From the NCBI GenBank assembly GCA_021325385.1, contig JAJPHH010000122.1:1-64000 (forward strand): DNA of 64,000 nt, read 5' to 3'. Positions within the stretch are counted from its first letter, which is position 1. Each line of letters starts with the position of its first letter. Origin of the DNA: Alphaproteobacteria bacterium. GTDB taxonomy: Bacteria; Pseudomonadota; Alphaproteobacteria; Rhizobiales; Beijerinckiaceae. Below are positions 44,368 through 62,703 of this stretch, piece by piece. The notes under the pieces were generated by a model. That model was not told the origin of the DNA. It did no database searches and was given only the letters and a program-made list of their open reading frames with translations. Position numbers and translations under genes: made by a program.

Positions 44368-44523
44368 GCCAAGGGCTCCAAAGAATGGGCTCTATCGCCA
44401 ATATGGCGCGAAATTCGACCCGAAATAAGCCCCGGCGGCTGCGGTGTTTCGTCCAGCGACCTTTGCTCCACATCCGAATTGCGATAGAGCATAACTATAT
44501 TCGCGGCGGACGGAGCGCGAGAA

Positions 44524-45015
44524 TTGAAAGGCGAAGCGATTCTGGAGGAAGAGGCGGCTCCCCGCGCCGCGGACGGCCAGGAAATCGATCTTTCGAAACT
44601 GACCGACCTCGTCGGCTATCAATTGCGTCGCGCCCAGATCGCCGTGTTCGACGATTTTATCCGCTCCTTCGCGCCTTACGACATCCGGCCGACGCAATAT
44701 GGCGTGCTCACCGCCATCGAGAGCAATCCCGGCTCGTCGCAGGCCGCCATCGCGCAATCCCTCGGCATCAAGCGCTCGAATTTCGTGAAGCTGATCGACG
44801 AATTCGAGCGGCGGAAATTGGTCGTGCGCAAGCCGGTGGCCGGCGACCGCCGCGCCAACGCCCTGTTCCTGACCAAGGCCGGCCAGGCCGAACTCGCCGA
44901 GCTGCATCAGGTGCGCGCCGCCCATGAGGCGCGCATCGCCGCGCTGATCGGCGACGAGCGCGACCGGGGCGCGCTGCTGAAGCAGTTGCAGCGGCTGACG
45001 ACGATGAGGGGATAG
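44524..45015 (+). CDS. MarR family transcriptional regulator
   Basis: A 163-residue winged-helix regulator. The core includes YDIRPTQYGVLTAIESNPGSSQAAIAQSLGIKRSNFVKLIDEFERR-type sequence (about 58-102) and the wing DRRANALFLTKAG. Start TTG 44524 has GGAG upstream at suitable distance. The ligand is unknown. It is divergent from SCO1 and followed by a very small membrane ORF, either of which could be its target. Confidence 0.9.
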   Translation: MKGEAILEEEAAPRAADGQEIDLSKLTDLVGYQLRRAQIAVFDDFIRSFAPYDIRPTQYGVLTAIESNPGSSQAAIAQSLGIKRSNFVKLIDEFERRKLVVRKPVAGDRRANALFLTKAGQAELAELHQVRAAHEARIAALIGDERDRGALLKQLQRLTTMRG

Positions 45016-45027
45016 CGACGAACCGCT

Positions 45028-45126
45028 ATGCCGGCTAGCCTCAAAGATATGCTGAAATTCGCCGCATGGGCGGCGGCGTTCCTAGTGGCTCTGTCGGTGT
45101 TTACGCTCTGGGCGACAACGCGCTGA
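45028..45126 (+). CDS. Small predicted membrane protein, 32 residues
   Basis: An open frame reading MPASLKDMLK, then a hydrophobic stretch (AAWAAAFLVALSVFTLWA), then TTR and a stop. It has one confident transmembrane helix flanked by charged ends. It starts 12 bases after the MarR gene stop and may be co-transcribed. A ribosome site is weak; the internal ATG 45049 is an alternative. It converges on uxuA. No family is recognised, and coding status is likely but not certain. Confidence 0.5.
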   Translation: MPASLKDMLKFAAWAAAFLVALSVFTLWATTR

Positions 45127-45135
45127 TTTTTCTTC

Positions 45136-46317
45136 TTACGCCGCGCTCTCCAGCGCCCGGATCGCCCCGCGCAACTCGGCGAGCCCTTTCAAACGCCCGA
45201 TAGCGGAATAACCGGGATTGGTCTTCTTCCTCAAATCATCGAGCATGACGTGGCCATGATCGGGCCGGAAGGGGATCTTCCATTCGCTATCGCGCCGACG
45301 ATCCTCCGCCAGCAGCTCGCGCAAGACCGCGATCATGTCGCAATCGCCGTCGAGATGATCGGCTTCGTAGAACGAGCCGTCAGGCTCGCGCTTCACCGCG
45401 CGCAGATGGGCGAAATAGATGCGCGCTGCGAAGCGCCGGGCGATCGCCGGCAGATCGTTCGCCGCCGACGCGCCCAGCGAGCCGGTGCAGAAGCACATGC
45501 CGTTCGCCGGATTCGGGACGGCGTCGAATAGGGCTTGGTAGTCCTCCGCCTTGGAAGCGACGCGCGGCAGGCCGAGCAGAGGCCGCGGCGGATCGTCCGG
45601 ATGCAGCGTCAGCCGCACGCCAAGCGATTCGGCCGCCGGCGCGATGCGCTCCAGAAACTCGATCAGGTTCCGCCGCAATTGCGCCGCGTCGATCTTGCCG
45701 TATTGCGCCAGCTTCTCGCGCATGCCCGCCGCGTCGACCGGCTCGCTGGTCGTTCCCGGCAGTCCGGCGCCGATATTGGCGACGAGCCGATCGGCTTCGG
45801 TTTGCCCTAGCCCTTCGAAAATCTTTCGCGCGCGCTCGCGCACTTCGGGCGGATAGTCTTGGTCCGCGCCGGGCCGCTTCAGGATATGGATGTCGTACGT
45901 CGCCAGCCGCGCCTCGTCGAAACGGAGCGCCTTGGCGCCGTTCGGCAGCGGCCAGTCGAGATCGGTCCGCGTCCAATCCAGGACCGGCATGAAATTGTAG
46001 CAGATCGTCTTGATCCCATTGGCGGCGACCGCCTCCATGCTGGCGGTCCAGACGTCGATCGCAGCTTTCGCCTGCTTGCCAAAGCGCTTGACCTCGTCGG
46101 CAACCGGAATGCTCTCGACGATGGTCCATTTCAATGGCGTCCGGCCGGCGGGACCTTCCTCGATGATTCGCTTACGCGCCGCGACGGCCTCCCTGGTCCA
46201 TTCGCCGCCCGGCGGAATCGCGTGCAACGCGCTGACGATCTCCGTCGCCCCGGCCTGGCGCACGTCGTCCAGCGAGACATTGTCGTGCGGACCGTACCAT
46301 CGCCAAGCTTGCCGCAT
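45136..46317 (-). CDS. uxuA: Mannonate dehydratase
   Basis: A 393-residue TIM-barrel enzyme dehydrating D-mannonate to 2-keto-3-deoxygluconate in hexuronate catabolism. It begins MRQAWRWYGPHDNVSLDDVRQAGATEIV and contains LTLHPDDPPRPLLG, MCFCTGSLGA and FRPDHGHVMLDD, which carry metal-binding residues. GGGGAGGG precedes the ATG. No uxuB or hexuronate isomerase is in the window, so the gene stands alone. Confidence 0.95.
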   Translation of the reverse strand: MRQAWRWYGPHDNVSLDDVRQAGATEIVSALHAIPPGGEWTREAVAARKRIIEEGPAGRTPLKWTIVESIPVADEVKRFGKQAKAAIDVWTASMEAVAANGIKTICYNFMPVLDWTRTDLDWPLPNGAKALRFDEARLATYDIHILKRPGADQDYPPEVRERARKIFEGLGQTEADRLVANIGAGLPGTTSEPVDAAGMREKLAQYGKIDAAQLRRNLIEFLERIAPAAESLGVRLTLHPDDPPRPLLGLPRVASKAEDYQALFDAVPNPANGMCFCTGSLGASAANDLPAIARRFAARIYFAHLRAVKREPDGSFYEADHLDGDCDMIAVLRELLAEDRRRDSEWKIPFRPDHGHVMLDDLRKKTNPGYSAIGRLKGLAELRGAIRALESAA

Positions 46318-46346
46318 TTCCCTCCCCTTCTTAATGCCGTCGCTAT

Positions 46347-46429
46347 GTCATTCCCGCGAAAGCGGGAATCCAGACGGAGCAAGTTCTGAGGCTGAGGCCG
46401 TCTAGATTCCCTGAGTGCGCGGGAATGAC
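46347..46429. repeat. Palindromic REP/MITE-like element, copy 2
   Basis: Left arm (46347-46373) is identical over 27 bases to that of the element at 28585. The right arm, ending GCGGGAATGAC at 46429, is diverged (CTAGATTCCCTGAGTGCGC...). It lies upstream of uxuA, before the ABC-F gene. Confidence 0.88.
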
Positions 46430-46464
46430 ACTGAGGAGTCGAACAGGCGCGCGCTTGCTCCCGC

Positions 46465-48264
46465 TCACCCTTCGATCTCCTCCCGTAGAATCTCGAGATT
46501 TAGCCACTCGTCTTCCGCGGCCGTCAATTCGTCCGCGACCTCCGCATAACGCGACGAAGCGCGCGCGAAGCCTGCGGCGTCGCGTTCGTGAAGCTCGGGA
46601 TCGGAGAGTCTCGCATTGAGCTTTGCGAGCTCCGCGCGTAAGGCGTCGATTCGCGCTGGCAGCGTCTCCAGAGCGTGCTTCTCTTTGAACGACAGCCGGC
46701 GCTTGGCGGCCGCTTTCGACGGCTGCGGCTCGGATTTCGCCGCCTTGGCCGCAGGCCGCTCTGACGCGGCCGAAGGCCGAGCGCCGCGCTGGGCCAGCAT
46801 GTCCGAATAGCCGCCGGCATATTCGACCCAGCGGCCGCCGCCTTCGTTGACGACGACCGATGTCGCGACCCGATCGAGAAAATCGCGATCGTGGCTGACG
46901 AGCAGGATCGTGCCCGAATAATCGCCGAGCAATTCCTGCAGCAGATCGAGCGTCTCCATATCGAGATCGTTGGTCGGCTCGTCGAGGGCGAGCAGGTTCG
47001 ACGGCTGCGCCAGCGCGCGCGCCAACATCAGGCGGCCGCGCTCGCCGCCGGAGAGGCGGCCGATCGGCGTGCGCGCCTGCTCGGCCGCGAAGAGGAAATC
47101 TTTCATATAGCCGACCACGTGCTTGCGCTCGCCATTGACCGATACGTAATCGCTGCCGCCGCCGGTCAAAGCGTCGGAAAGGGTCATCGCCGGATCGAGG
47201 CTGGCGCGGCGCTGGTCGAGGCTCGCCATGACGAGATTGGCGCCGAATCGCAACGTCCCCGAATCGGGCGCGAGCGCGCCGGTCAGCAGATTGACCAACG
47301 TCGTCTTGCCGGCGCCGTTGGGGCCGACAATGCCGAGGCGGTCGCCGCGTAGGACGCGGATCGAGAAATCATTGACGATCGGCTTGTCGCCATAGGCCTT
47401 GCTCAAGCGATCGGCTTCGATCGCGAGCTTGCCGGAGAGCGGCGCATCGGAGGCGGTCATCTTAACGTCGCCTGCGGCTCGCCGGGCTTCGCGCCGCTCG
47501 GTCCGCAAGGCCCTTAATTCGCCGACGCGGCGCTGATTGCGCTTGCGCCGCGCGGTGACGCCGTAGCGCAGCCAATCCTCCTCGGCGGCGATGCGGCGGT
47601 CGAGCTTGCGCCGCTCGGTTTCCTCTTCTTCGAGCAGCTTGTCGCGCCAGGCTTCGAACCCGGCGAAGCCGCGATCCAGGCGCCGCGTCGCGCCGCGATC
47701 GAGCCACACGGTCGCCGCGGTGAGATCAGCGAGGAGCCGCTTGTCGTGGCTGATCACGACCAGCGCCGCGCGCTGCGATTTCAATTCGCTCTCGAGCCAT
47801 TCGATCGCCTCGATATCGAGATGATTGGTCGGCTCGTCGAGCAGCAAGATGTCGGGCGACGGCGCGAGGACACGCGCCAAGGCGGCGCGGCGCGCCTGGC
47901 CGCCCGACATGGTCGCAGGCTCGGCGTCCGCCGCGACGCCGAGCGCGCCAAGCAAAGCGCGCGCCCGGCGGGGATCATCGCTTTCGCCCAAGCCCGAGAG
48001 GACGTAGTCGAGAGCCGAGGCGAAGCCTTTGAGATCCGGCTCCTGCGGCAGGTAGCGCAAAGCCGCGCTCGGCTGGACGAAGCGTTCGCCGGAATCGGCC
48101 TCGATCGCTCCCGCCGCGATCTTGAGCAGCGTCGACTTGCCGGAGCCGTTGCGGCCGACCAGCGCGATCCGCTCGCCGGGCGCGACGCTGAGCTCGGCGC
48201 CCTGCAAGAGGGGCGTCGCGCCGAAACTCAGGCGAATGTCTCGCAGTTGCAATAGAGGCGGCAT
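46465..48264 (-). CDS. ABC-F family ATP-binding protein, Uup-like
   Basis: A 599-residue soluble protein with two ABC domains and no membrane part. Domain 1: [33 protein letters not shown]. Domain 2: [33 protein letters not shown]. The linker is charged ([13 protein letters not shown]), and a coiled-coil C-terminal extension about residues 530-599 is typical of Uup. ABC-F proteins act at the ribosome or, for Uup, in DNA/branch-related processes. Confidence 0.93.
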
Positions 48265-48408
48265 AGTTGCAAACCCGGATCGGCGGGCGAAGCCTTAGAG
48301 CGGTCCGTCGCAAAGCGGAAGCGGTTTTCGCCCTCTGGGCAGACCGGCTCAAATCCGGCCCTTTTTGCTGCTAGTATTCAGCGTCGTGTCCACGACGGAG
48401 GCCTTCAA

Positions 48409-50046
48409 ATGATCGATCCGGCGCGCAAAGCGGCGCTCGAAGCGCTGAGCCGGCAAGTCCTGGGACGGAGCGTCGCTGACGAATTCGGGGCCGATCCCGA
48501 TCGTTTCGACAGCATGCATGTCGAGCTCGACGACCTGCTCTTCGACTATTCGAAGCAGCGGCTGAACAAGGCCGCCTTGGCCGAGCTCGTCGCGCTCGCC
48601 ACGGCCTGCAATGTTGAGGAAAAGCGCGACGCGATGTTCCGCGGCGACATTGTCAACCCGACCGAGCGCCGCGCCGCGCTGCACACCGCCTTGCGGAACC
48701 TTTCCGGCGACCCTGTCTTCGTCGACGGCCGCGACATCATGCCGGACGTGATCGCCGAGCGCGCCAAAGTCGAGGCCTTCGCCGAAGACGTGCGCGAGGG
48801 CCGCTTGCGCGGCGCGCTCGGTCAGCCGATGACCGACATCGTCAATATCGGCATCGGCGGCTCGGATCTTGGCCCGGCTATGGCGACGAAAGCGCTCGCG
48901 CCCTACGCAGCGCCGAATCTGCGTAGCCATTTCGTCTCCAACGTCGACGGCGCCGATTTGGGCGATACGCTGCGCGGGCTTGATCCGTCGCGCACGCTGT
49001 TCATCGTTTCGTCCAAGACTTTCACCACGCTGGAGACGATGACCAACGCCAAAAGCGCGCGGAGCTGGATCGCCGGCGCGCTTGGCGAAGCGGCGGTCGG
49101 CGACCATTTCGCCGCGGTTTCGACCCGGCTCGACAAAGTGGCGGAATTCGGCATCGAGGCGGACCGCGTCTTCGGCTTCTGGGATTGGGTCGGCGGCCGT
49201 TACTCGGTCTGGTCGAGCATCGGCCTGCCGCTGGTGATCGCGATCGGTCCGCAACATTTCGAGGCGTTCCTCGCCGGCGGCCACGACGTCGATCAGCATT
49301 TCTGCTCTGCGCCGATCGCCGAGAACATTCCGATGCTGATGGGGCTGATCAGCGTCTGGAACCGCAATGTTCTCGGCCACGCCAGCCAGGCGGTGATCCC
49401 CTACGATCAGCGCTTGTCGCGCTTTCCCGCCTATCTGCAGCAGCTCCAGATGGAGAGCAACGGCAAGAGCGTTCGCCTGAACGGCGCGCCCGCCACTGAC
49501 GCAACCGGTCCGGTCGTCTGGGGAGAGCCGGGCACCAATGGCCAGCACGCCTTCTTCCAATTGATCCATCAAGGCGTCGAGATCGTGCCGACGGATTTCC
49601 TGATCGCTGCGCAGCCGACCAACGCCGACGGGCGTCATCACGACCTGCTCATCGCCAATTGCTTCGCCCAGGGCGAGGCGTTGATGCGCGGGCGGTCGAC
49701 GGCGGAGGCCGATGCGATCAATCGCGGCCTCGGCCTTTCAGTCGAGGAGGCGGCGCGGCTCGCTCCGCACAAGACCTTTTCCGGCAGCCGGCCGTCGAGC
49801 ACGTTCCTTTACGATAAGCTGACCCCGCGTACGCTCGGCCGCCTGATTGCGCTTTACGAGCATAAGGTCTTCGTCGAAGCGGCGGTTTGGGACATCAATC
49901 CGTTCGACCAGTGGGGCGTCGAGCTCGGCAAGGAATTAGCGTCGCGTCTCGCGCCGATCGTTTCCGACGCGAAAGCCGACATTTCCAACCTCGACGCGTC
50001 GACGGCCGGCCTGGTGACGCACTTACGCAAGCTGAGAGGCAAGTGA
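48409..50046 (+). CDS. pgi: Glucose-6-phosphate isomerase
   Basis: A 545-residue glycolytic enzyme interconverting glucose-6-phosphate and fructose-6-phosphate. Motifs: [39 protein letters not shown], the catalytic [17 protein letters not shown] (His), and GVELGKELA near the C-terminus. GGAGG lies just before the ATG. The 144 bases upstream carry no clear gene. Confidence 0.97.
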
Positions 50047-50187
50047 GAGAGCGTCAGAGGTAAAGCTCTGCTGGGCCTCCGTCGCTTCTCGCGCCTCCCT
50101 TTGTGAGAAGTGAGCTACAGGTGTTGCCGGCAACCCGACCCGCCGCGTCGAACGCAGCGAGTCGGCCTCGTCGCTCAAGGGCGTCGC

Positions 50188-50763
50188 TCAATAGATGCCG
50201 AAGCTGACCAATGGCGTGCTCACCACAGCGCCGCCGCAGACTGCTGCGTCGGGATAGACATAGGCGAAGCCGTTCCAATAGGGCGCGCAGTAATCGGCGG
50301 CATAGTAGGGGTAGTCCCAACCCCAGCCCCAGCCCCAGGCGGCGCCGAGGAGCGGAGCGCCCCATCCCCATCCCCAGCGATGATGATGGCGCCAACGCCA
50401 GTCCCGATCCCAGCCGCCGTTCCAGGCGCCGCGCCAACCCGCGCCGCGCCAGCCGTGATTCCAGGTCGGTCCCGTCGCAACACGGCCGCCATAAGCGCCC
50501 CCGCCCGCAAGCGCGGCGCCGTGAAAGCCGCCGACACCGCCCCGGAACGCTCCCGGGCCGTGGAAGGCGCCGGCCATGCCGGCGCCATGGAATCCGCCGC
50601 CGGCGAAGCCGCCATGGAATCCGCCGCTCATGCCGCCGCCGTGAAATCCTCCGCCTCCGCCTCCGCCGCCATGGATGAAGGCCGCCGAAGCCGGGACGGC
50701 CGCAGCTCCCAAGGCGAGCGCCGAAACGACTGCGAGAGCCGTGTTCTTGACTGACCTAAGCAT
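50188..50763 (-). CDS. Secreted Gly/His/Trp-rich protein
   Basis: A 191-residue predicted exported protein. The signal peptide ends about VPASAA. The mature part is low complexity: GGGGGGFHGG-type repeats, then Trp/Arg/His-rich (GWRGAGWRGAWNGGW; HHHRWGWGWG), ending CAPYWNGFAYVYPDAAVC. The Cys-bounded C-terminus matches that of the next gene upstream (50938-51429). ATG 50763 has GGAGA six bases before it. Function unknown; composition recalls glycine-rich structural or sulfur-globule-like proteins. Confidence 0.8.
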   Translation of the reverse strand: MLRSVKNTALAVVSALALGAAAVPASAAFIHGGGGGGGGFHGGGMSGGFHGGFAGGGFHGAGMAGAFHGPGAFRGGVGGFHGAALAGGGAYGGRVATGPTWNHGWRGAGWRGAWNGGWDRDWRWRHHHRWGWGWGAPLLGAAWGWGWGWDYPYYAADYCAPYWNGFAYVYPDAAVCGGAVVSTPLVSFGIY

Positions 50764-50937
50764 CGTCATTCTCCGCAAACTGCGCCGCCGCTCGCAGCGA
50801 GCTCCGGCGCGTGCAATAATTAGGAACGGTCGCGTTTTGCGACGAGTTCCGACCCCCGGGAATGAAAAGCCTATTTCGCAATCCGCCGCGCAAAGCTGCG
50901 CGGGCGAGGCGCTGCGCCTGGCCGGAGCGGGGAAGGC

Positions 50938-51429
50938 TTAATAAGTGGAGTCGTAAGGCGCTGGGCAATTGTCAGGGTAGCCCGGCGGGTAGACATAGGC
51001 GTAGCCGTTCCAATAGGGCCGGCAAGAGCTGTACTCGTCGTACTCGTTGTCGAACAAAGCGGGCCCGCCGAAGACGAAATGCCGGTGGTGATGGCGATGG
51101 TGACGCCCATGGCCGTCGCTGTCGCGCCCGCCGAAGCCTCCCTCTCCCAACATCGCGGCCGCGTTCGCCCCGGCGGAGCCGCCGGGATGCCTGTGGGCTG
51201 CGCCGCCATTGACGGGGATCTGACCGCCGCCTAGCCCGCCGCTCTGAACGCCGCTCGCCCCGCCGGGCTGGCCGCCGCTCATCCCGCCAACATTGCCGCC
51301 GCCCGCGCCGCCGCCATGGACGAAGGTCGCCGAAGCCGCCAAGGCCGGGGCGACCCCGTTCGCCGTCGCCGCTAGGCCGAATAAAGCCGCCGCGGCGGCG
51401 CTCCGGATCCATTTCTTTGCGATACGCAT
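50938..51429 (-). CDS. Secreted Gly/His-rich protein, paralogue of the neighbouring gene
   Basis: A 163-residue predicted exported protein: signal peptide (about 1-32, ending ALAA), a glycine-rich repeat region, a His-rich run (GRHHRHHHRHF) and the C-terminus CRPYWNGYAYVYPPGYPDNC. The Cys-PYWNGxAYVYP-Cys end is shared with the protein at 50188, so the two form a pair. The His run could bind metals. Function unknown. Confidence 0.8.
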   Translation of the reverse strand: MRIAKKWIRSAAAAALFGLAATANGVAPALAASATFVHGGGAGGGNVGGMSGGQPGGASGVQSGGLGGGQIPVNGGAAHRHPGGSAGANAAAMLGEGGFGGRDSDGHGRHHRHHHRHFVFGGPALFDNEYDEYSSCRPYWNGYAYVYPPGYPDNCPAPYDSTY

Positions 51430-51591
51430 CGCTCGTCTCCAGGTTTGAGCGAATCCAAAGATCGCTCGTCCTCACGCCCGGAATGGGAGTGTCGGTCGCG
51501 CCGCCGCCGAGAGATAAGTCTGCGGCGGAAGAAAGGCGTCTTGAGGGCGGTGAACGCCAAATTCGGCGCTCCGCCTTCGCCGGCTGGCCTG

Positions 51592-51621
51592 ACGAAAAAA
51601 GGCCCCGCGAAAGGCGGGGCC
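51592..51621 (-). terminator. Rho-independent terminator of the 51686 gene
   Basis: Reading the minus strand: GGCCCCGC, short loop, GCGGGGCC (51621-51601), then a run of T (51600-51595). It is a strong intrinsic terminator 65 bases past the stop. A near-identical one follows the paralogous gene at 52103-52129. Confidence 0.92.
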
Positions 51622-51627
51622 AGGACC

Positions 51628-51677
51628 GGAACGCTGAGGGGCGCAGCGTTCCGACGCGCCGGTCAGGGCGACCGGCG
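51628..51677 (-). ncRNA. Structured 3' UTR with two hairpins (copy A)
   Basis: Between the stop of the 51686 gene and its terminator are two stems. One is CGCCGGTC (51657-51664) with GACCGGCG (51670-51677). The other is a GGAACGCT...AGCGTTCC stem (51628-51652). The paralogous 3' UTR at 52138-52187 has the second stem identical over 25 bases and the first stem changed but still fully paired. The paired changes indicate a selected RNA structure. Confidence 0.6.
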
Positions 51678-51685
51678 AACCGAAA

Positions 51686-51961
51686 TCAGCAGACGTTGAC
51701 GGCCTGCCGGCCGGCGTAATTGCCGTAAGCGTCGTAGACCGGCTGATAGCGAACGCACTCATTCTGCGCGGCGGCCGAGGCGGCCATGGCGCCGACGGCG
51801 AGGCCGAAAAGGCCGAGGCCAACGGCCGGGCCCCAATAGCCGCCGTGATGGCGCCAACCGCCATGCCAGCCGCCGGCGGAAGCCGGGGTCGCGCTGACGG
51901 CCGCAGCTAAGGTGACCGCCGCAAGCGAAGCGGCGATGGTCTTCTTGAAAGTGGCGCGCAT
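51686..51961 (-). CDS. Small secreted Gly/Trp-containing protein (paralogue 1)
   Basis: A 91-residue exported protein. The signal peptide ends TPASA. The mature part begins GGWHGGWRHHGGYWGP, has a hydrophobic Ala/Gly stretch (GLGLFGLAVGAMAASAAA), and ends CVRYQPVYDAYGNYAGRQAVNVC. The last part is nearly the same in the gene at 52202. Two terminal cysteines could form a disulfide. The hydrophobic stretch may insert in a membrane or self-associate. Function unknown. Confidence 0.85.
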   Translation of the reverse strand: MRATFKKTIAASLAAVTLAAAVSATPASAGGWHGGWRHHGGYWGPAVGLGLFGLAVGAMAASAAAQNECVRYQPVYDAYGNYAGRQAVNVC

Positions 51962-52102
51962 AGGTTCAACTCCAGGATCGGGATGGTTCGCGGCGGCGCC
52001 GCGAGCGGATCACGACCTTCGGTTACGGGACGCTTCGCGCTTTACGGACGCTGGGGTCGCCCCGGACGTTCGTCACGACTTCGTGAGCCCGGGCGCCTGC
52101 GC

Positions 52103-52129
52103 AAAAAAAGGCCCCGCCGAAGCGGGGCC
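52103..52129 (-). terminator. Rho-independent terminator of the 52202 gene
   Basis: On the minus strand GGCCCCGC (52129-52122), loop TTCG, GCGGGGCC (52117-52110), then seven T (52109-52103). It is a strong intrinsic terminator matching the one at 51592-51621. Confidence 0.93.
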
Positions 52130-52137
52130 AGGAACGG

Positions 52138-52187
52138 GGAACGCTGAGGGGCGCAGCGTTCCGAGCGCCGGCTTGGGGTAGCCGGCG
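52138..52187 (-). ncRNA. Structured 3' UTR with two hairpins (copy B)
   Basis: It contains CGCCGGCT (52166-52173) paired with AGCCGGCG (52080+100 to 52187), i.e. 52180-52187, and the GGAACGCT...AGCGTTCC stem (52138-52162). Compared with copy A at 51628-51677, the first stem has paired substitutions that keep pairing. Confidence 0.6.
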
Positions 52188-52201
52188 AACTCGTCGTGCT
52201 A

Positions 52202-52522
52202 TCAGCACACATTCACAGCCTGCTGACCGATGTAGTTGCCCCACGCATCATACATCGGCTGGTAAGTCACGCAGGCGCCATAATAGCCGCCGTAGTAGAA
52301 CGGCGCGGCGAGCGCAGCGCCGGCCAGAGCGCCGAACGCGAACGGGGCCCAGCCCCAGCCGCCGTGACGCCATCCGCCATGCCAACCGCCGTGCCAGCCT
52401 CCATGCCATCCGCCGCCGTGCCACATAGCGGCCGAAGCAGGCGAAGACGCCGCAATCGTTCCAAGGCCCAAACTCAGAGCCGTCAGCGAGACCGCGACGG
52501 CCTTCTTCAAAGAAGCGCGCAT
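52202..52522 (-). CDS. Small secreted Gly/His/Trp-rich protein (paralogue 2)
   Basis: A 106-residue exported protein. The signal peptide is about residues 1-32. The mature part has GGWHGGWHGGW-type repeats, a hydrophobic stretch (FAFGALAGAALAAPFYYGG), and the end CVTYQPMYDAWGNYIGQQAVNVC, which is the paralogue of the 51686 protein. The ATG at 52522 gives MRASLKKAV, matching MRATFKKTI of the paralogue. Function unknown. Confidence 0.85.
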   Translation of the reverse strand: MRASLKKAVAVSLTALSLGLGTIAASSPASAAMWHGGGWHGGWHGGWHGGWRHGGWGWAPFAFGALAGAALAAPFYYGGYYGACVTYQPMYDAWGNYIGQQAVNVC

Positions 52523-52732
52523 GTCAAACCTCCGTCTCTCCGCGAAGCCCTTTTCGGGCTGCCCGATACGAACGCCGAAAGCATCCGCTTGTCTCGCCGT
52601 TCGAAACGCCTTCAAGCGGGAAATGTTCAAAATGTCCGGCGCCTGAAGGGAGGATTCTTCTTGGACCTTCAGATATGGCGGGTCGCCGTTCGTTCAAGAC
52701 CCTTCTATCAAAGCCTGTAGCGCCGCGACATT

Positions 52733-52788
52733 AATATTCGTTCAGAAAAGCGGGTCGAAAGCGCCGCAACCCGTGAATATTCGTTCAG
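52733..52788. repeat. Two direct repeats AATATTCGTTCAG in the promoter region of the 52202 gene
   Basis: AATATTCGTTCAG occurs at 52733-52745 and 52776-52788, 43 bases apart. A further CGTTCA lies near 52690. These sit in the 288-base region between the 52202 gene start and the argH stop. They look like binding sites of an unknown regulator. Confidence 0.5.
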
Positions 52789-52810
52789 GTTTGGTTGCGA
52801 GGCCGCCTTT

Positions 52811-54202
52811 TCACCTTCGTGTGACGCCCAGCCGCTTGAGCCACAGCCGCGCTTGGCGGCGAACATTGGCCGGGGCGGCGCCGCCATAGCTCGTGCGGCT
52901 CCGGACCGAGCGGTCCGCGCCGAGCACGGAGAAAACTTCCTGGTCGATGCGCGGCTCCACCGCCTGCATCTCGGCGAGCGGCAGCTTCTCCAACGAGCAG
53001 CCCCGCGCCGCGGCCGCTGCGACGATCCGCCCTGTGATGTGATGGGCCTCGCGGAACGGGACGTTCAGCCGCCGCACCAGCCAATCTGCGAGATCCGTCG
53101 CCGTGGCGTAGCCCGCCCCCGCCGCCGCCTTCATGCGCTTGGCGTCCGGCGCCATGTCGCGCGTCATGCCGGTCATCGCCGCAACAACGAGCGACAAAGT
53201 TTGCAACGCGTCGAAGACGCCTTCTTTGTCCTCCTGCATGTCCTTGGCGTAGGCGAGCGGCAGCCCTTTCATCACGGTCAGCAGGCCGATCAGCGCGCCG
53301 AAAATCCGCCCGGTCTTGCCGCGGGCAAGTTCGGCTGCGTCGGGATTGCGTTTCTGCGGCATGATCGAAGAGCCGGTCGAGAACGCGTCGGACAGTTTGA
53401 CGAAGCCGAATTGCGGCGTCGTCCAAAGTACGATCTCCTCGGCGAAGCGCGACAGATGGGTCGCGCAGATCGCGGCGGCGGCCAAGGCTTCGAGCGCGAA
53501 GTCGCGATCGGCGACGCTGTCGAGCGAATTGGCGGTCGGCCGGTCGAAGCCGAGCGCCTTGGCCGTCATCTCGCGGTCGATCGGGAACGACGTGCCGGCG
53601 AGCGCGGCGGCGCCGAGCGGGCATTCGTTGAGACGTTTGCGCGCGTCGGCGACACGGCCGCGATCGCGCGCCAGCATCTCGACATAAGCCAGCAGATGAT
53701 GGCCGAACGTCACCGGTTGCGCCGATTGCAGATGAGTGAAGCCCGGCATGACCGAGCCGGCGTGTTCGAGCGCCCGTTCGGCCAAAGCCTGCTGCAAACC
53801 GGCGATCTGTTGATCGAGCATGTCGAGCGCGTCGCGCACCCAGAGCTTCAGATCGAGCGCGACCTGATCGTTGCGCGAGCGCGCGGTATGGAGGCGGCCC
53901 GCCGCCGGGCCGACCAGTTCGGCGAGCCGGGCCTCGATGTTCATATGAATGTCCTCGAGCGCGCGCGAAAAGGCGAAGCCGCCGGTCTCGATTTCGGCGC
54001 CGACCTCGTCTAGACCCTTCTCGATGGCGGCGGCGTCGGGCTCGGCGACAATTCCGGTTGCGGCGAGCATGGCGACATGCGCTTTGGAGCCGGCAATGTC
54101 CTGGGCGGCGAGCTTGCGGTCGAAATCGATCGACGCGTTGATCTCCTCCATGATCTTTGCGGGTCCGCCGGCGAAACGGCCGCCCCACATCTTGTTGCTC
54201 AT
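52811..54202 (-). CDS. argH: Argininosuccinate lyase
   Basis: A 463-residue fumarase/aspartase-superfamily enzyme making arginine and fumarate from argininosuccinate. Starts [29 protein letters not shown] and carries the signature [12 protein letters not shown] with the catalytic serine. [11 protein letters not shown] and [12 protein letters not shown]-type segments are present. It is divergent from tlpA with only 20 bases between their starts, a common alphaproteobacterial arrangement. Confidence 0.97.
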
Positions 54203-54222
54203 CGACGCCTCGGGAAAAACGA

Positions 54223-54885
54223 ATGGCAGCTGAACAGGCGGGAATTTGGCGCAAGGCGCCGCTGATCGGGCTCGCCGCTTTCGCCATTGCGGCCGCGGCG
54301 GGGCTCGCCGTCCTATACGGGAAGGGCCCCTCCGGCAAGGACGAGGCGGCGCTTTGCCCGAGCGCCGGCGCCGTCGCCGCGCGGCTCGCGCCGCTCGCCC
54401 ATGGCGAGATCGCAGCGCTCAGCATCGACAGGCGGCCAAAGCCGGCGACGGCCGTCTCGTTCAACGGTCCCGACGGCAAGAAGCTGACCCTCGCCGATTT
54501 CCGCGGCCGCAACGTTGTGTTGAACCTCTGGGCCACGTGGTGCGCGCCGTGCCGGTCGGAAATGCCGGCGCTCGATCGCCTCCAGGCGAAATTCGGCGGG
54601 TCCGACTTCCAGGTCGTCGCGGTCAATATCGATACGGTTCGGCTCGATAAGCCCAAGGCCTTTTTCGCCGAGGCCGGCGTCAAGAATCTCAACCTCTACG
54701 CCGATCCGAGCGCCGACTCGTTCGAGGCGTTGAAAGTCGCCGGCAAGGCGCTCGGCCTGCCGACCAGCGTTCTGATCGACAAGGAGGGCTGCGAGATCGG
54801 CGTGATGGCGGGGCCGGCCGCTTGGGACAGCAAGGACGCCGAGGCCGCTATAGCGGCCTTGCTGGGCCGCGGCGGGCAGGGCTAG
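54223..54885 (+). CDS. tlpA: TlpA-like thiol:disulfide oxidoreductase
   Basis: A 220-residue membrane-anchored periplasmic thioredoxin. One N-terminal helix (about 12-32) is followed by a thioredoxin fold with active-site WCAPC (Cys107, Cys110) and cis-proline segment GLPTSVLID. TlpA proteins reduce cysteines for cytochrome oxidase and other periplasmic maturation. Divergent from argH; the ATG at 54223 was chosen since the open frame upstream overlaps argH. Confidence 0.92.
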
Positions 54886-54918
54886 GGCGGCGAGAAGGCG
54901 GAGGCGGAAGGGGCCGCC

Positions 54919-56199
54919 ATGATCAAGCCGCGCTTCATGGGGGCGCTGATCGCGCTCGTCGCCGCCGCGACGGCGGCGGCTGCTGCGGAAGCGCCGGCCT
55001 GGCAAGGCGTCTATGAGGGCGTCATCGGCAAGGCGCATGTCGTGGCGGCTCTCGGGCCGAGCGGCTCGCGCTATTTCTACGCCGGACAGGCCAACGACCT
55101 CGGGCTGATCGTCATGCAGGCGGGCGCTCGCCTCCGTTTCGTCGAAACGCTCGCCCCGAATATCGGCGACGACGAGGTGAAGGAGCATCCCGATCTCGTC
55201 AGCGGCCGCTGGTCTGCGACATTCGACAATGGCGTTCTGAAAGGCGTCTGGAAGGACGCCAAGGGCGGGCGCAGTCAGGCCGTCGCGCTGACAAGAGTGT
55301 CCACAGCCGACGAAACCGCCGCCAACGACATCTATCCCGATCAGCCAGGCGATTACATCCGGCGTTGGCTCGCCGCCGCGCCAGCCCTTGTCTCGGGCGG
55401 CCAAGAAGCCTCGATCGGACCGCTCGCCTACCGGGTCCTGCGCGATCCGCAGTTCGGCGACGCTCTTCCGCGTCTGGTCGGCGCGCCGCCGGATATTCGG
55501 CTGGATCGCGTCAACGCCGCGCTCGACCGCTTGCAACGCGAATTCGTGCTGAACGATCGCTGGTGTCTTCAGGGTCGCCGCGCCAACGCGGCGCGCGGCG
55601 GCGCCGAGGCGTTGAAAAAAGAGGAGCAGGCGGCGGCTGTGGACGCCGAGCGCGGCGAGCCGACCGCCAGGCCGATCTATGCGACCGACCGGCTGCTGAC
55701 GCTGGAGGAGACGCGCGAAACCTATTGCGGCGGGGCCCATCCCAATCTCGAAGTCGACGATTTCGCGTTCGATCTCGGCGACGGCGCGCAACTCACCGGA
55801 TTTAACGACGCCAAGGGCGATCTCGACCCGAGCCGTCTCGGCCGCGCCTTCGATTTCGCCGATCCGAAGAAACAGGCCGCCTTCGACGCGCTTTGGATGG
55901 GATTGCTGCGCGCCGCGATCAAGGCGCAGGCCGCAGCCAAGCCTGACGATGAAGCCGGATGCGGACAAATCATTTTGGAGCGGCTCGATCAGGACGGCGC
56001 GGCCATCGCCAAGCGCATCTATCCAACTGCGAAGGGCCTTGCATTCCGCATCGTCGATTTTCCCCGCGCGGTCGAAAATGTCTGCCTCGGCGACGACGGC
56101 TCGCCGAACCCGATCGTCGTACCTTACGCGGAATTGAAGCCTTTTCTCAAGGCGAACCAGCGGCTCTTGCCGGCTTCGGGGCCGCCGAGTCCCAAATAG
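54919..56199 (+). CDS. Secreted protein of unknown function, DUF3298-like
   Basis: A 426-residue predicted periplasmic protein. The signal peptide ends about residue 23 (AAAAE). The N-terminal third is a beta-rich region. A segment YCGGAHPN at about 269-276 resembles the TGGAHxN motif of DUF3298/RsiV-type domains. The protein ends Pro/Ser-rich. It lies 33 bases after tlpA, with AGGCGGAAGGGG before the ATG, and is probably co-transcribed. Function unknown. Confidence 0.7.
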   Translation: MIKPRFMGALIALVAAATAAAAAEAPAWQGVYEGVIGKAHVVAALGPSGSRYFYAGQANDLGLIVMQAGARLRFVETLAPNIGDDEVKEHPDLVSGRWSATFDNGVLKGVWKDAKGGRSQAVALTRVSTADETAANDIYPDQPGDYIRRWLAAAPALVSGGQEASIGPLAYRVLRDPQFGDALPRLVGAPPDIRLDRVNAALDRLQREFVLNDRWCLQGRRANAARGGAEALKKEEQAAAVDAERGEPTARPIYATDRLLTLEETRETYCGGAHPNLEVDDFAFDLGDGAQLTGFNDAKGDLDPSRLGRAFDFADPKKQAAFDALWMGLLRAAIKAQAAAKPDDEAGCGQIILERLDQDGAAIAKRIYPTAKGLAFRIVDFPRAVENVCLGDDGSPNPIVVPYAELKPFLKANQRLLPASGPPSPK

Positions 56200-56594
56200 G
56201 GCGTGGCGGAGATTGGCGGCGACCGGTCGTCCCGCGTCACTGGTCGGCGCATAAGTACGTACTTAAGCCGCGAGAGGCGTCCTCGCCGCCGTTCCGACGC
56301 CGTAGCGGCGACAACGTTCGCACGGCGGCTCGCCGCCGACCGCAATCGCACGGCGCCGCGACGGCCTTGCGCCCAGCTCGTCTCATGGCCCGCCGCCGCG
56401 GCGCGGATGACCCTTGCCTAACGCCGCCTGGTGACAGTTTCTGTCAGCAGCGCCGCGGCCGGCGTGAAAGATTCGACGGCTGCGCCTTCGCGCCGGTTGA
56501 AAGGGCGCTGTCGCAAACCTATTTTGGTCGTCTGTAAGCCGCGCCCGAGGCGGCTGCCGCTCGACGCGGAGCGGCCCTCTCATAGGGGGCTTTC
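56200..56594. other. Intergenic region upstream of the first cyclase, with two palindromes
   Basis: This 395-base gap holds no convincing gene. It has a perfect 14-bp palindrome TAAGTACGTACTTA at 56252-56265 and a dyad TGACAG-TTT-CTGTCA at 56432-56446. The latter lies about 150 bases before the cyclase ATG and could be an operator. Confidence 0.55.
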
Positions 56595-58004
56595 ATGGCT
56601 GAAACCGACACCCTTTGGGCTCTGCTGGGACAATCGGCGGACCCCGCCGTCGCCGCTTCGCTGAAGAGCCTGGTCGAGACCGGCGAGGATCGCGCGCTCA
56701 ATCGCATCAATGCGCTCGCCTTCGCCGCGGCGCGCGGCCATGGCGAGGAAGAGACGATCACGACCTTGGTCCACGCCGCCCGGCTCGGCCTGTTCGACCT
56801 CTCCTGGAATGTGCTCTGTCCTGGCTGCGGCGGCGTGCTCGAAGCCGGCGGCGCGCTCAAGACGATCGCGCACCACGATTATTTTTGCTCGCTCTGCGCG
56901 GGCGCTTACGAGCCGACGCTCGACGAACTCGTCGAAGTGACGTTCACGGTCAATCCGCGCACGCGCCATATCGCCGCCCACGACCCGGAGGCGCTGCCGC
57001 TGGCGGAATATATGCGGCAAGTCTTCTGGGGCTCCGGCGTCGACTTGCCGGAGGACATCGGCGCGACGATGAACGAGATTGCGCTCGACACGATGGAGCT
57101 TGCGCCCGGCGAGAAGGCGGCGATGTCGCTGAGCTTGCCGGAATCCTTCATCATCGCCTTCGATCCGGTCACCCACACGACGCTGTTCCTCGAAATCAAG
57201 GGCGAGCCGACCCATGAGCGTCGCAACGTATCGCTGGTCTTCAGCGATTTCCACGCCAATGCCGGCAAGCTGACCCTGCAGCCCGGGCCAGCTCGCTTTT
57301 CGTTCGAAAACAAATCGGCGAAACGCACGCTGCCCGGCCTATGGATCGCCGGCGACGCCCTGCATCGCATTTTAGGCAAAAGGCGGCCGTTCCTCACGGC
57401 GACGCGGCTGTTGAGCAATCAGACCTTCCGCGATCTCTACCGAACCGGCACGCTCGACAAAGATCAGCGGTTCAAGATCACCAGCCTGACGATCCTCTTC
57501 ACCGACTTGCGCGGCTCGACCGCGCTCTATGATCGCGTCGGCGACCTCGCCGCTTTCGACCTGGTCCGCGACCATTTCAGCGCTTTGCTGACGACCGTCG
57601 CCGCCGAAGGCGGCGCGGTGGTCAAGACGATCGGCGACGCGGTGATGGCGACGTTCCCGACGCCCGACCGCGCCATTCGCGCGGCGATGAAAATGCGCGA
57701 AGCGATGCGCAAGATCAACGAAGCGCGCGGCAGCGAGGATTTGGCGCTCAATATCGGATTGCATGAAGGGCCGTGCCTCGCCGTCATGCTCGATGAGCGC
57801 CAGGACTATTTCGGCCAGACGGTCAATGTCGCCGCCCGCGTTCAAGGCCTCGCCGATCCGAGCGCGATTCTCGTCACCAAGCCGATCGTCGAATCGGCCG
57901 AGGTCGCCCGGTTCCTGGCCGAACAGGGCGTGGCCGCGAAGGAGAGGCAGGCCTATGCGCTGCGAGGCGTCAGCGAGCCTGTGCCGGTATATGAGCTGCG
58001 ATAG
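56595..58004 (+). CDS. Class III adenylate cyclase with N-terminal DUF5939 and zinc ribbon (copy 1)
   Basis: A 469-residue soluble cyclase. The DUF5939 region is about residues 1-290 and contains a zinc-ribbon-like CPGC and CSLC pair (about 74-98). The catalytic domain is about 295-430. Metal-binding Asp304 (FTDLRGS) and Asp348 (IGDAVMATF), Lys344 and Thr409 for ATP selection, and Asn411/Arg415 (VNVAARV) are all present, so it should be an active adenylate cyclase. A near-identical gene follows at 58201. The cue sensed by DUF5939 is unknown. Confidence 0.9.
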   Translation: MAETDTLWALLGQSADPAVAASLKSLVETGEDRALNRINALAFAAARGHGEEETITTLVHAARLGLFDLSWNVLCPGCGGVLEAGGALKTIAHHDYFCSLCAGAYEPTLDELVEVTFTVNPRTRHIAAHDPEALPLAEYMRQVFWGSGVDLPEDIGATMNEIALDTMELAPGEKAAMSLSLPESFIIAFDPVTHTTLFLEIKGEPTHERRNVSLVFSDFHANAGKLTLQPGPARFSFENKSAKRTLPGLWIAGDALHRILGKRRPFLTATRLLSNQTFRDLYRTGTLDKDQRFKITSLTILFTDLRGSTALYDRVGDLAAFDLVRDHFSALLTTVAAEGGAVVKTIGDAVMATFPTPDRAIRAAMKMREAMRKINEARGSEDLALNIGLHEGPCLAVMLDERQDYFGQTVNVAARVQGLADPSAILVTKPIVESAEVARFLAEQGVAAKERQAYALRGVSEPVPVYELR

Positions 58005-58200
58005 GTCCAGGACTGAAGGAAGGCGACAGGTACTTCATCGAGAGGGCCTCTTTTCGCAACCAGTCCTGAGTACGTCGACTGAATTGCAAACGCCTTCCTG
58101 CTGTCGAGAGGGGAAGCGCTATTGAATCTTGCATTGCGGCTTCCTATTTTTCCGCCTCGCTTTCCGCTCACGTCAGGCCGCGTCGCTAAGGGAGCGCCCC

Positions 58201-59607
58201 ATGGGTGAAGTCAGCACTCTTTGGACCCTGTTGGGGCAGGCGGCGGACCCGGCCGTCGCCGCTTCGTTGAAAAGCCTGGTCGAGACCGGCGAAGACCGGG
58301 CGCTGAACCGGATCAATCCGCTTGTCCTCGCCGCCGAGCGCGGTCATGGCGAAGAGGCGGTCGTCTCGACGCTCATCCACGCCGCGCGGCTCGGCCTTTT
58401 CGACCTTTCCTGGAACGTCCTCTGTCGCAGTTGCGGCGGCGTGTTGGAGGCCGGCGGCGGCCTCAAGACGATCAATCGAAGCGAATACTTTTGCGCTTTT
58501 TGCGCGATGCGGAACGAGCCGACCCTCGACGAGTTGGTCGAAGTGACGTTCACCGTCAACTCGCGCATTCGCCGCATTGCGGCGCATGATCCCGAATCGC
58601 TGCCCTTCGCCGAATATATGCGCCAAGTCTTCTTCGGCTCCGGCGCCGACTTGCCGGAGAATATCGATGCGGCGCTCGCGGACACGACGCTCGACGTGAT
58701 CGAACTCGGTCCCGGCGAAAAGGCGGCGATGTCGCTGAGCCTGCCGCAAGGCTCGATCATCGTCTTCGACCCGGTGACGCATACGACGCTGTTTCTCGAA
58801 GTTTCGGGCGAAGCGGCGCATGAGCGGCGCAATGTCCAGCTGGTGTTCAGCGATTTCCATGTGCATGCCGGCACGCTGGCGCTGCAGCCCGGCCCGGCGC
58901 GGATCTCCTTGGAGAACCGGTCGGCGCGGCGCGCGATTCCCGGCCTTTGGGTCGCCGGCGAGGCGATGCACAATCTGGGCAAGCGACGGCCGTTCCTCAC
59001 CGCGACGCGGCTGTTGAGCAACCAGACCTTCCGCGACCTCTATCGCACCGGCACGCTCGAAAAGGAGCAGCGCTTCAAGATCACCAATTTGACGTTCCTG
59101 TTCACAGATCTCCGAGGCTCGACGGCGCTTTACGACCGCATCGGCGACCTCGCCGCCTTCGACTTGGTGCGCGATCATTTCAGCGCGCTGCTGACTTCGG
59201 TCGCCGCCGAGGGCGGCGCGGTGGTCAAAACGATCGGCGATGCGGTCATGGCGACCTTTCCAGCGCCGGATCGGGCAGTCCGCGCGGCGATGAAGATGCG
59301 CGGCGCCATGCGCGAGATCAATCAAGCGCGCGGCAGCGACGACCTTGCGCTCAATATCGGCTTGCATGCCGGGCCCTGCCTGGCGGTCGTGCTCGACGAG
59401 CGGCAGGATTATTTCGGCCAGACGGTCAACGTCGCCGCCCGCGTCCAAGGCCTTGCCGATCCGAGCGCGATCCTGGTCACCAAGCCGATCGTCGATTCGG
59501 CGGAAGTGTCGCGCCTCTTGGCCGAGGCCGGCATAGCCGCGAAAGAAAGGCAGTCGAATCCGCTGCGCGGAATCAGCGAACCGGTGCCGTTATACGAACT
59601 GAGGTAG
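58201..59607 (+). CDS. Class III adenylate cyclase with N-terminal DUF5939 and zinc ribbon (copy 2)
   Basis: A 468-residue paralogue of the preceding cyclase and clearly a tandem duplicate; most differences lie in the DUF5939 region. The zinc ribbon is CRSC and CAFC. Catalytic residues are conserved (Asp303, Lys343, Asp347 and VNVAARV). AAGGGAG lies six bases before ATG 58201; an upstream frame from 58129 is not homologous. The 196-base gap to copy 1 has long inverted repeats. The two may respond to different signals. Confidence 0.9.
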   Translation: MGEVSTLWTLLGQAADPAVAASLKSLVETGEDRALNRINPLVLAAERGHGEEAVVSTLIHAARLGLFDLSWNVLCRSCGGVLEAGGGLKTINRSEYFCAFCAMRNEPTLDELVEVTFTVNSRIRRIAAHDPESLPFAEYMRQVFFGSGADLPENIDAALADTTLDVIELGPGEKAAMSLSLPQGSIIVFDPVTHTTLFLEVSGEAAHERRNVQLVFSDFHVHAGTLALQPGPARISLENRSARRAIPGLWVAGEAMHNLGKRRPFLTATRLLSNQTFRDLYRTGTLEKEQRFKITNLTFLFTDLRGSTALYDRIGDLAAFDLVRDHFSALLTSVAAEGGAVVKTIGDAVMATFPAPDRAVRAAMKMRGAMREINQARGSDDLALNIGLHAGPCLAVVLDERQDYFGQTVNVAARVQGLADPSAILVTKPIVDSAEVSRLLAEAGIAAKERQSNPLRGISEPVPLYELR

Positions 59608-59693
59608 AAAGGCGCCGACGACGGCGGGCGCAGCGACGCAGCAATGCTCTGTGGCGCGCCTTCGCCTGCCGTGACAGAACGAGCTGGACTAAT

Positions 59694-61187
59694 TTAGCCG
59701 CGGCGCGTCGCTGTCTCCGCTCGGTACAGCTCGCCGTACCGTCTGAGCCGCGGCGCGTGCAGCGACGCTCGTTCGGCGCGCGGCTCGAATCGCTTCTGCG
59801 CCTCTGGCGCGGCGCAGATTGTCCGTTCGTCGCCGGCCCCGGCGGCGAGCATCGCGAGGCGGGCCGCGCCGAGCGAGGCGCCGGCTTCCGCGCCGGCCGG
59901 CAGATCGATCGTCAGGCTGGTCACGTCGGCGATGGTCTGCGCCCAGAACGCGCTGCGCGCGCCGCCGCCGACGATCAGCGTCGATTTCGGCCGCGCGCCG
60001 GCGGCGTCGATCACGTCGAGTCCGTCGGCGAAGGAGAAGGCGACGCCTTCCATCACCGCGAAGACCAAAGCCTCCGCGCCATGCTCGGCGCGCAACCCGG
60101 CGAACATGCCGCTCGCGGCGGGATCGTTGTGCGGCGTCCGCTCGCCGGAAAGATAGGGCAAGAAGATCGGCGCGTTGGCGACGTTTTCCGGTTTCGCCGC
60201 GAACGCCTCCGCCTCCTGGATCAATGCGGCGATGTCGTCTTGCCGCTTCAGGATCGTGGCGATCCAGCTCAAGGCCGAGGCCGCCGACAACATCACCGCC
60301 ATGGCGTGCCATCGCCCGGGCAGCGCGTGGCAAAAGGCGTGCAAAGTCCGCTCGGGTAGGCTGACGAAGCGATCGGTGACCGCGAAAATCACGCCGGACG
60401 TGCCCAACGAGACGAGACCTTGACCAGCGCCGACCGCGCCGATGCCGATTGCGGCGGCGGCGTTGTCGCCGGCGCCGCCGGCGATCGGCACGCGCCGGCC
60501 AGCGAGTCCCCAGCGGCTCGCCGTCGCCGGCGAAAGATAGGCGGAGCTTTCCGAGCCTTCGACCAGGCGGGGCATCGCTTTCTCGCTCAAGCCGCAAGCG
60601 GCGAGCAGATCGGCGTCCCAACGGCGCTCGGCGACATTCAGCCAGAGCGTGCCCGAGGCGTCGGACATTTCCGAGACCGCTTCGCCGCTCAATACGAACC
60701 GGACGTAATCTTTCGGCAACAGCACGCGCGCCGTCGCGGCGAAGACTTCAGGCTCGTGCTTGGCGACCCAGATCAGCTTCGGCGCGGTGAACCCGGCCAT
60801 GGCGATGTTGCCGGCCCGCCGCCGCGAATCGGGGACGCGGCGCTCCAACTCGGCGCATTCGGCGAAGGAGCGTCCGTCGTTCCACAAAATCGCCGGCCGG
60901 AGCACGCGACCGTCCTTGTCGAGCAGCACTGCGCCATGCATCTGGCCGGAGAGGCCGATTCCGGCGAGTTTTGAAAACTCGGCGCTCGCTTCTCGCCTGA
61001 TCGCGGCGACGGCGTCTTCGACCCCCCGATCCCAATCGTGCGGGTCCTGCTCGCTCCACAATGGATGCGGCCGCGAGACGTTCAAAGGCGGCGCGCTTTC
61101 CGCGACGACGCGCTGGCTCGCGTCGACCAAGACGGCCTTGATCGAGGATGTGCCGATATCCAGACCGAGAAATGTTTCGCCCGCCAC
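59694..61187 (-). CDS. xylB: Xylulokinase
   Basis: A 497-residue FGGY-family sugar kinase phosphorylating D-xylulose. FLGLDIGTSSIKAVLVD is the N-terminal ATP-site strand, and GLSGQMHGAVLLD is the xylulokinase substrate signature; GGAGDNAAAAIGIG and VGGGARSAFWAQTIAD complete the fold. No xylA or transporter lies in the window. The start has GAGGGAG before ATG 61187. It could also serve other pentuloses. Confidence 0.93.
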   Translation of the reverse strand: MAGETFLGLDIGTSSIKAVLVDASQRVVAESAPPLNVSRPHPLWSEQDPHDWDRGVEDAVAAIRREASAEFSKLAGIGLSGQMHGAVLLDKDGRVLRPAILWNDGRSFAECAELERRVPDSRRRAGNIAMAGFTAPKLIWVAKHEPEVFAATARVLLPKDYVRFVLSGEAVSEMSDASGTLWLNVAERRWDADLLAACGLSEKAMPRLVEGSESSAYLSPATASRWGLAGRRVPIAGGAGDNAAAAIGIGAVGAGQGLVSLGTSGVIFAVTDRFVSLPERTLHAFCHALPGRWHAMAVMLSAASALSWIATILKRQDDIAALIQEAEAFAAKPENVANAPIFLPYLSGERTPHNDPAASGMFAGLRAEHGAEALVFAVMEGVAFSFADGLDVIDAAGARPKSTLIVGGGARSAFWAQTIADVTSLTIDLPAGAEAGASLGAARLAMLAAGAGDERTICAAPEAQKRFEPRAERASLHAPRLRRYGELYRAETATRRG

Positions 61188-61235
61188 GATATCGCTCCCT
61201 CAAAGTTCGAGCGCGTTCGGCCGCGCTGCGTAGCA

Positions 61236-61295
61236 AAGGCCCCGGCGTCGCCGCCGAGGCCTTGATTTTAGGCTGGCGCGGCGCCTGGCGCCGCG
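61236..61295 (-). terminator. Tandem hairpins downstream of cspA
   Basis: Two stems follow the cspA stop on the minus strand. The first is CGCGGCG with CGCCGCG (61277-61295). The second is AAGGCCTCGGC with GCCGGGGCCTT (61236-61263, ten of eleven pairs) followed by three T. The second is the likelier terminator. Confidence 0.55.
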
Positions 61296-61313
61296 ATTGT
61301 CTTAAACGACGCC

Positions 61314-61523: not shown

Positions 61524-61793
61524 GGGAAGCCTTCCTTTAGTCCAATAGTACTTAAGCGGGGCAGCCCGCCTGTCGGTCATCGATGTTAGGGAGGTCGTCA
61601 GCGCGCACCTTTCGATGCGAGGCCAAGTCGTCGGCCAAAATCGATGGCCGCCCGGATAGTCGATCGTCGTGTCGGAATCAAGGCGAGCGACGAAAATTGG
61701 GGGCGCTGGGCGCGGCGTTCATGTCATAAAAGCATCAAAAGACGACTGGATTTGGCCTCGAGCAGTACGTACTCTGGTTCGCGGGAGCGGGCC

Positions 61794-62696: not shown

Positions 62697-62703
62697 GGGA
62701 TAA

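Follow-up and report, generated by a model that had tools for sequence, protein, structure and literature searches.

Analysis of the 64,000-nt window, by which we mean the whole stretch of DNA that was analysed, revealed a small RNA element located between the stop codon and the intrinsic terminator of two tandem genes for small proteins, here called A and B, and a further copy of this element was found behind a phasin gene on another contig of the same genome. We regard the element as real and as seen in one lineage, and it is probably regulatory. Its informative part is the 13-nt tip of the second hairpin, which is common to an unrelated gene, and not the pair of hairpins as such. In our judgement there is about an even chance that the 3′ ends of the A and B mRNAs and of the phasin mRNA (or a separate RNA encoded just behind it) are sibling regulatory RNA modules. 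At the sequence level this reading draws on the fixed tip, the paired changes in the stems, the position in front of a terminator, and the occurrence in three host transcripts that represent two unrelated gene families. Among the functions that the first-pass annotation had considered for such a structure, we tend to favour a released or 3′-UTR regulatory RNA over a stability element or a protein-binding site.

The protein encoded by gene B contains, according to its translation, GGWHGGW repeats and a C-terminal YDAWGNY...VNVC motif. Searches of A and B against Pfam gave nothing below E 0.1 and searches against NCBIfam gave no match, yet the protein family of gene B is common, with profile matches at E 1e-6 in 266 of 397 genomes of the taxonomic family and at E 1e-3 in 10 of the 11 genomes of the genus, the own genome being counted in both cases. 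When gene A was used as a query against the genome contigs, 597 stretches were returned and none was confirmed; a search of plasmids gave no match, and synteny with argH found no support, with no homologue present in the 80 best loci. The closest ArgH proteins from named genome records are those of a Hyphomicrobiales MAG (83%) and of Methylocapsa aurea (79%), which would place the genome near the Beijerinckiaceae.

Two more genes for small Gly/His-rich proteins with apparent signal peptides adjoin the A/B pair on the minus strand (50188-50778 and 50938-51429). Their products have a YWNG(F/Y)AYVYP motif in common and no Pfam match below E 0.5 or NCBIfam match. Elsewhere in the taxonomic family, six genomes of one genus, g52 (G204, G322, G332, G402, G421 and G435), carry 6-10 matches to the secreted-protein family each, some of them with identical scores on separate contigs.

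Table 1. Positions in the window of genes A and B and of the RNA structures at their 3′ ends.
Feature	Positions	Strand	Description
Gene B	52202..52522	(-)	106-aa small protein, apparent signal peptide
Hairpin 1, copy B	52166..52187	(-)	8 bp, loop ACCCCA
Hairpin 2, copy B	52138..52162	(-)	25/25 nt identical to copy A, loop included
Invariant tip, copy B	52144..52156	(-)	CUG-CGCCCCU-CAG; 3 bp and 7-nt loop
Intrinsic terminator, copy B	52103..52129	(-)	GGCCCCGC-UUCG-GCGGGGCC followed by U7
Gene A	51686..51961	(-)	91 aa, apparent signal peptide; paralogue of gene B, 53% identity
Hairpin 1, copy A	51657..51677	(-)	8 bp, loop GCCCU; 2 both-sided pair changes relative to copy B
Hairpin 2, copy A	51628..51652	(-)	25/25 nt identical to copy B, loop included
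Invariant tip, copy A	51634..51646	(-)	CUG-CGCCCCU-CAG; 3 bp and 7-nt loop
Intrinsic terminator, copy A	51595..51621	(-)	GGCCCCGC-CUUUC-GCGGGGCC followed by U6

The first-pass annotation had described the same layout of hairpin, hairpin and intrinsic terminator behind both genes, including a stem identical over 25 bases, and the folds, the terminator listing and the sequence of hairpin 2 bear it out. Downstream of each stop codon, hairpin 1 comes first, then hairpin 2 and finally a GC-rich terminator ending in 6-7 U (Table 1). The 99- and 104-nt 3′ stretches fold better than 200 of 200 shuffled sequences (z -4.5 and -5.5). When the stretches are shortened so that the terminator is cut, z is -2.5 and -2.7, and 2 of 200 shuffles do equally well in each case. 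The terminator stem GGCCCCGC/GCGGGGCC together with a T run occurs at two sites genome-wide, namely those of A and B, and among the sites listed for positions 44001-64000 the combination of 8 G-C pairs with a T run of at least six was likewise present at these two terminators alone. The 25-nt hairpin 2, searched in its own genome with up to three mismatches, also gave two sites only. One copy of hairpin 1 has the stem CGCCGGUC/GACCGGCG and the other has CGCCGGCU/AGCCGGCG; two of the eight pairs are altered on both sides and no pair is altered on a single side, as expected from the claim that both strands had changed together. These changes form one block adjoining the loop, and the covariation between the two sequences is weak, being equalled by 119 of 500 shuffles.

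The coding sequences of A and B have 165 of 273 nucleotides and 42 of 91 third positions (46%) in common, and dS amounts to 1.3 and 1.6 with two estimators; given this divergence, the identical tract of hairpin 2 points either to constraint or to very local gene conversion. A run of 25 consecutive matches would be expected by chance with a probability of 4e-9 at an identity of 0.46 and of 3e-6 at 0.60, uncorrected for having picked the longest run in ~95 nt of UTR. An explanation that requires no special function would be a tandem duplication of the gene with its 3′ UTR, where conversion keeps hairpin 2 alike and the third site is a chance or stray copy. This would suit the tandem arrangement of A and B, which lie 510 bp apart, as well as the lack of conservation of the layout in the relatives examined. 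However, since diverged sequence flanks hairpin 2 on both sides, the conversion tract would have to be ~27 nt, and conversion between A and B leaves the phasin copy unexplained. We therefore consider such an origin very unlikely, and the 3′ structures of A and B, which are real, look constrained.

The phasin copy was obtained by the covariance-model search for more copies in the genome that the first-pass annotation had suggested; the search yielded one further copy, with paired changes. Model R1, built from a two-row alignment in which hairpin 1 was misaligned and used to score 150 of 802 first-look candidates, gave the two known copies as its strong matches and missed the third. Model R2 was built from copy A alone and recovered copy B in the window at E 3e-18 and the third copy (locus L288, G000:C160:28228-28323, minus strand) at 40.7 bits and E 6e-8; it scored 150 of 687 candidates, so that a further copy with an altered tip could be missed. 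Of its 23 matches beyond A and B, 10 were examined and 13 weak ones left out. The third copy starts ~90 nt past the stop codon of the phasin gene (PF09361, E 1e-23) and contains GGGUAG-CUGCGCCCCUCAG-A-CUACCC; a terminator of 12 bp with 7 U comes next. The 13-nt tip, four of the seven modelled stem pairs beneath it and the order of the parts are common to all three copies, and the phasin copy differs from A and B in three stem pairs, in the spacers and in part of the terminator. Its hairpin 1 has four modelled pairs, with gaps at the other four of the eight, and the minimum-energy fold draws this stretch otherwise. In all three copies, five loop bases out of the seven that separate CUG from CAG are predicted to be almost fully unpaired, and the remaining two may pair with each other.

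In the alignment of the three copies we count seven pairs that are changed on both sides, two in hairpin 1, three of the nine in hairpin 2 and two of the eight in the terminator, and all cells are paired. This result was matched by 1 of 500 shuffles (4 of 500 when pair types are counted), and none of the six slides of the alignment gave a both-sided pair; because the structure was used to fit the alignment, the count of pair changes leans towards it. Stem variation is limited, as the three copies agree in six of the nine modelled hairpin-2 pairs and six of the eight terminator pairs, and the whole hairpin could therefore also be shared by common descent. Moreover, A and B are paralogues, and the three copies therefore do not amount to three independent observations.

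The exact 13-mer occurs three times in its own genome where 0.18 occurrences are expected under an order-3 Markov model (trained on 860,564 bases from the own genome, with both strands and the window included), and each of the three sites lies inside a hairpin directly before a terminator. Allowing one mismatch gives eight sites, compared to five for the reversed control, and the five inexact sites are without the hairpin. Across the other 10 genomes of the genus the exact 13-mer was found once in total, and not in such a hairpin. Among 96 distinct sites of the core GCGCCCCTC, drawn from 367 loci of which many had been selected by their match to the core, the three copies are the only ones that join at least eight outward pairs with a terminator; one other core site, L283, has eight pairs with a bulge and is without a terminator. 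The phasin copy extends to nine outward pairs with one bulge, and at random positions of the own sequence at least nine outward pairs were seen in 222 of 200,000 cases (~1 in 900). The expected number of the 13-mer and the rarity of nine pairs around it speak against a third site that arose by chance.

The hairpins had been presented in the first-pass annotation as a conserved property of paralogous secreted-protein genes. While the structures themselves stand, the pair is not a feature of this protein family: homologues in related genomes mostly carry a plain terminator, and we reject conservation of the hairpin pair along with the family. A terminator follows 53 of 83 homologues and 70 of 789 other genes (Fisher p 2e-29), where the other genes, taken by a longest-ORF rule, include genes inside operons, which lowers their terminator count. 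With the first terminator rule, 34 of 97 distinct homologue flanks were positive; the rule was then changed to a shorter T run and a longer stem, and the same rule was applied to homologues and other genes. Among UTRs of 20-120 nt, an extra hairpin before the terminator was present in 17 of 48 homologues and 11 of 54 others (p 0.07), and at least two such hairpins in 5 of 48 and 1 of 54 (p 0.08; two of the five are the window copies, and p is 0.25 without them).

These figures, with terminators far commoner and an extra hairpin somewhat commoner behind homologues, would fit a stabiliser of mRNA 3′ ends, whose hairpins block 3′-5′ exonucleases and back up the terminator of strongly expressed mRNAs with no role in trans. 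A stabiliser needs pairing but no fixed tip, however, and here the tip is the same three times, with differences in the spacers, the terminator and part of the stem. Such a function accounts for the hairpins and not for the fixed tip, and we consider it unlikely.

A general rule of C-rich loops in the secreted-protein family is unsupported, as these precede the terminator in 6 of 48 homologue UTRs, two window copies included, and in 3 of 54 others (p 0.19). CCTCC before the terminator is no commoner in homologues (5/48) than in other genes (6/54). Within the first 80 nt it occurs in 29 of 108 homologues and 67 of 639 other genes, with 16 of 108 and 62 of 639 for the control GGAGG; terminator stems and C content confound the CCTCC excess.

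The 25-mer of hairpin 2 is absent, at up to three mismatches, from the 10 other genomes of the genus, and viral contigs contain no exact match to it. In the own genome, a covariance model of all three copies scored 100.6, 95.3 and 75.6 bits; in the 396 other genomes of the taxonomic family, where filters were stricter and 10 candidates were scored per genome in the rows listed, eight matched at E <=0.001 with a top score of 35.3 bits, and all eight matches were carried mainly by terminators. Within this limited candidate scoring, the element was thus recognised in none of the 396 genomes, 10 of them congeneric. Overall, the model matches examined in relatives are mainly terminators or chance fits to coding sequence, along with some C-rich hairpins before a terminator. 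Phasin homologues are present in 48 of 60 genomes (own genome counted), and the 13-mer is absent from the 29 phasin loci taken from relatives, of which 19 flanks were folded and examined. A phasin paralogue of the own genome, with 76% identity, is followed by a terminator-like hairpin without the motif.

An Rfam search of the whole window gave no family at its gathering score, and the sub-threshold matches at A and B lie mostly on the terminator. The lowest E-value among the Rfam matches in 50700-52800 belongs to SorX (RF02784; 26.6 bits, E 0.001), where the match is largely terminator, and the two SorX scores of 26.6 and 25.5 bits fall short of the gathering score of 46.6. For the third copy the best match is ncS54 with 27.4 bits (gathering score 43). 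The sRNA sX13 of Xanthomonadaceae (RF02232) resembles our element in having several stem-loops and a C-rich loop before a terminator, but the score is 27.4 bits compared to a gathering score of 50. The element is unlike REP-like palindromes, which are dispersed between genes in many copies, as the genome holds three exact tips and the 25-nt hairpin twice.

The element lies on the sense strand, after a stop codon and ahead of an intrinsic terminator, the position of a 3′-UTR-derived sRNA. ccaF1 encodes a DUF1127 protein; in contrast to the hosts of CcsR-type RNAs, genes A and B have no DUF1127 match in Pfam and the third site has a phasin. According to excerpts of a report on Rhodobacter sphaeroides, CcsR1-4 and SorX are 3′-UTR-derived and RNase E takes part in their maturation (PMC8625941). 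Like them, our element is located past the stop codon of a protein gene and ahead of its terminator, whereas the host genes named in these excerpts, ompR-1 and ccaF1, are unrelated to the hosts found here (PMC8625941).

In the Rhizobiales, SmelA075/SmelA099 and alpha-r14 (NfeR1) are described, in the portions available of two reports, as carrying C-rich loops on variable stems, which are proposed to pair with ribosome-binding sites (PMC3927594; PMC7143759). As in these families, of which the same portions mention several copies per genome, there are multiple copies here, with three exact tips that each sit in a pre-terminator hairpin. In the families as portrayed there, every hairpin has CCUCCUCCC or a similar anti-Shine-Dalgarno motif; in our element CGCCCCU is found in one hairpin only, on a fixed 3-bp tip, and neither this loop nor those of hairpin 1 (GCCCU and ACCCCA) is of the CCUCCUCCC type. 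As for a fixed loop on hypervariable stems, the tip does not vary among the three copies, but no more than three of the nine modelled hairpin-2 pairs changed, and at these A does not differ from B. A link to phasins exists for MmgR (alpha-r8) of Sinorhizobium meliloti, which, as far as the excerpted text goes, has an anti-Shine-Dalgarno loop motif and is a trans-encoded sRNA affecting phasin levels (PMC7143759), while our own element is positioned after a phasin gene. Since the tip is not CCUCCUCCC and no Rfam family reaches its gathering score, we file the element under no known family. Our literature searches found nothing on phasin together with a UTR-derived sRNA and nothing joining small RNAs of Methylocystis or Methylobacterium with CCUCC; for the tip sequence, they led to unrelated aptamer work.

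Alternatively, the tip might be recognised by an RNA-binding protein that controls how stable the three transcripts are or how they are processed or localised. The invariant unit consists of three base pairs plus loop, as would fit the recognition of a shaped tip, and because base pairs belong to the invariant part, this alternative keeps some weight. Yet the hairpin matches no known hairpin class, as no Rfam family reached its gathering score, and a bulged A adjoins the tip in one of the copies but in neither of the others; we hold this explanation to be improbable.

Our best reading of a regulatory RNA is by analogy: the sibling RNAs would share one pairing or binding tip and would work like the C-rich-loop sRNAs of Alphaproteobacteria. 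In such a model, RNase E or a similar endonuclease would cut near the stop codon and leave an RNA of ~90-100 nt, protected by the hairpins and the terminator, whose U tail may bind Hfq. The C-rich tip could then pair with G-rich mRNA sites, e.g., GAGGGG-type ribosome-binding regions, and all sibling RNAs would have the same targets. We put forward tentatively, with more doubt than confidence, that they are lineage-specific 3′-UTR-derived sRNA siblings, in which one tip was placed behind unrelated genes and couples their expression to shared targets or to one RNA-binding protein. If true, this would be a young regulatory RNA family caught early, its one short tip shared by unrelated genes of a single lineage, and the way in which 3′ UTRs gain trans-acting RNAs could be tested directly on it. 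It would also tie carbon-storage granules, through phasin, to a cluster of small secreted proteins without known function.

Several relatives have C-rich stretches of their own at comparable positions. The 3′ flanks of related secreted-protein genes from two members of the genus, L006 (G002) and L008 (G006), share an identical C-rich CGTCCTCCCCC just before the terminator; the genes are 52% identical at third positions, and CGTCCTCCCCC lies in a predicted hairpin whose stems differ between the two. This stretch is a possible analogue of the window element with another tip. The top R2 match outside the own genome, L289, is also located in G002 (contig C166, 4509-4603, minus strand; 28.3 bits). 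It lies behind an unrelated ORF and consists of a hairpin, with CGTCCCCC as its C-rich loop, and a terminator; a shared C-rich tip may thus exist in G002 too, in a version of its own. The 3′ flank of a phasin gene in G012 (L386) carries the C-rich TTCCTCCC and CTCCTCCCCC, an anti-Shine-Dalgarno-like motif, in predicted hairpin loops. Weak model matches at L046, L048 and L056, in other genomes and behind other ORFs, likewise correspond to hairpins with C-rich loops directly before a terminator.
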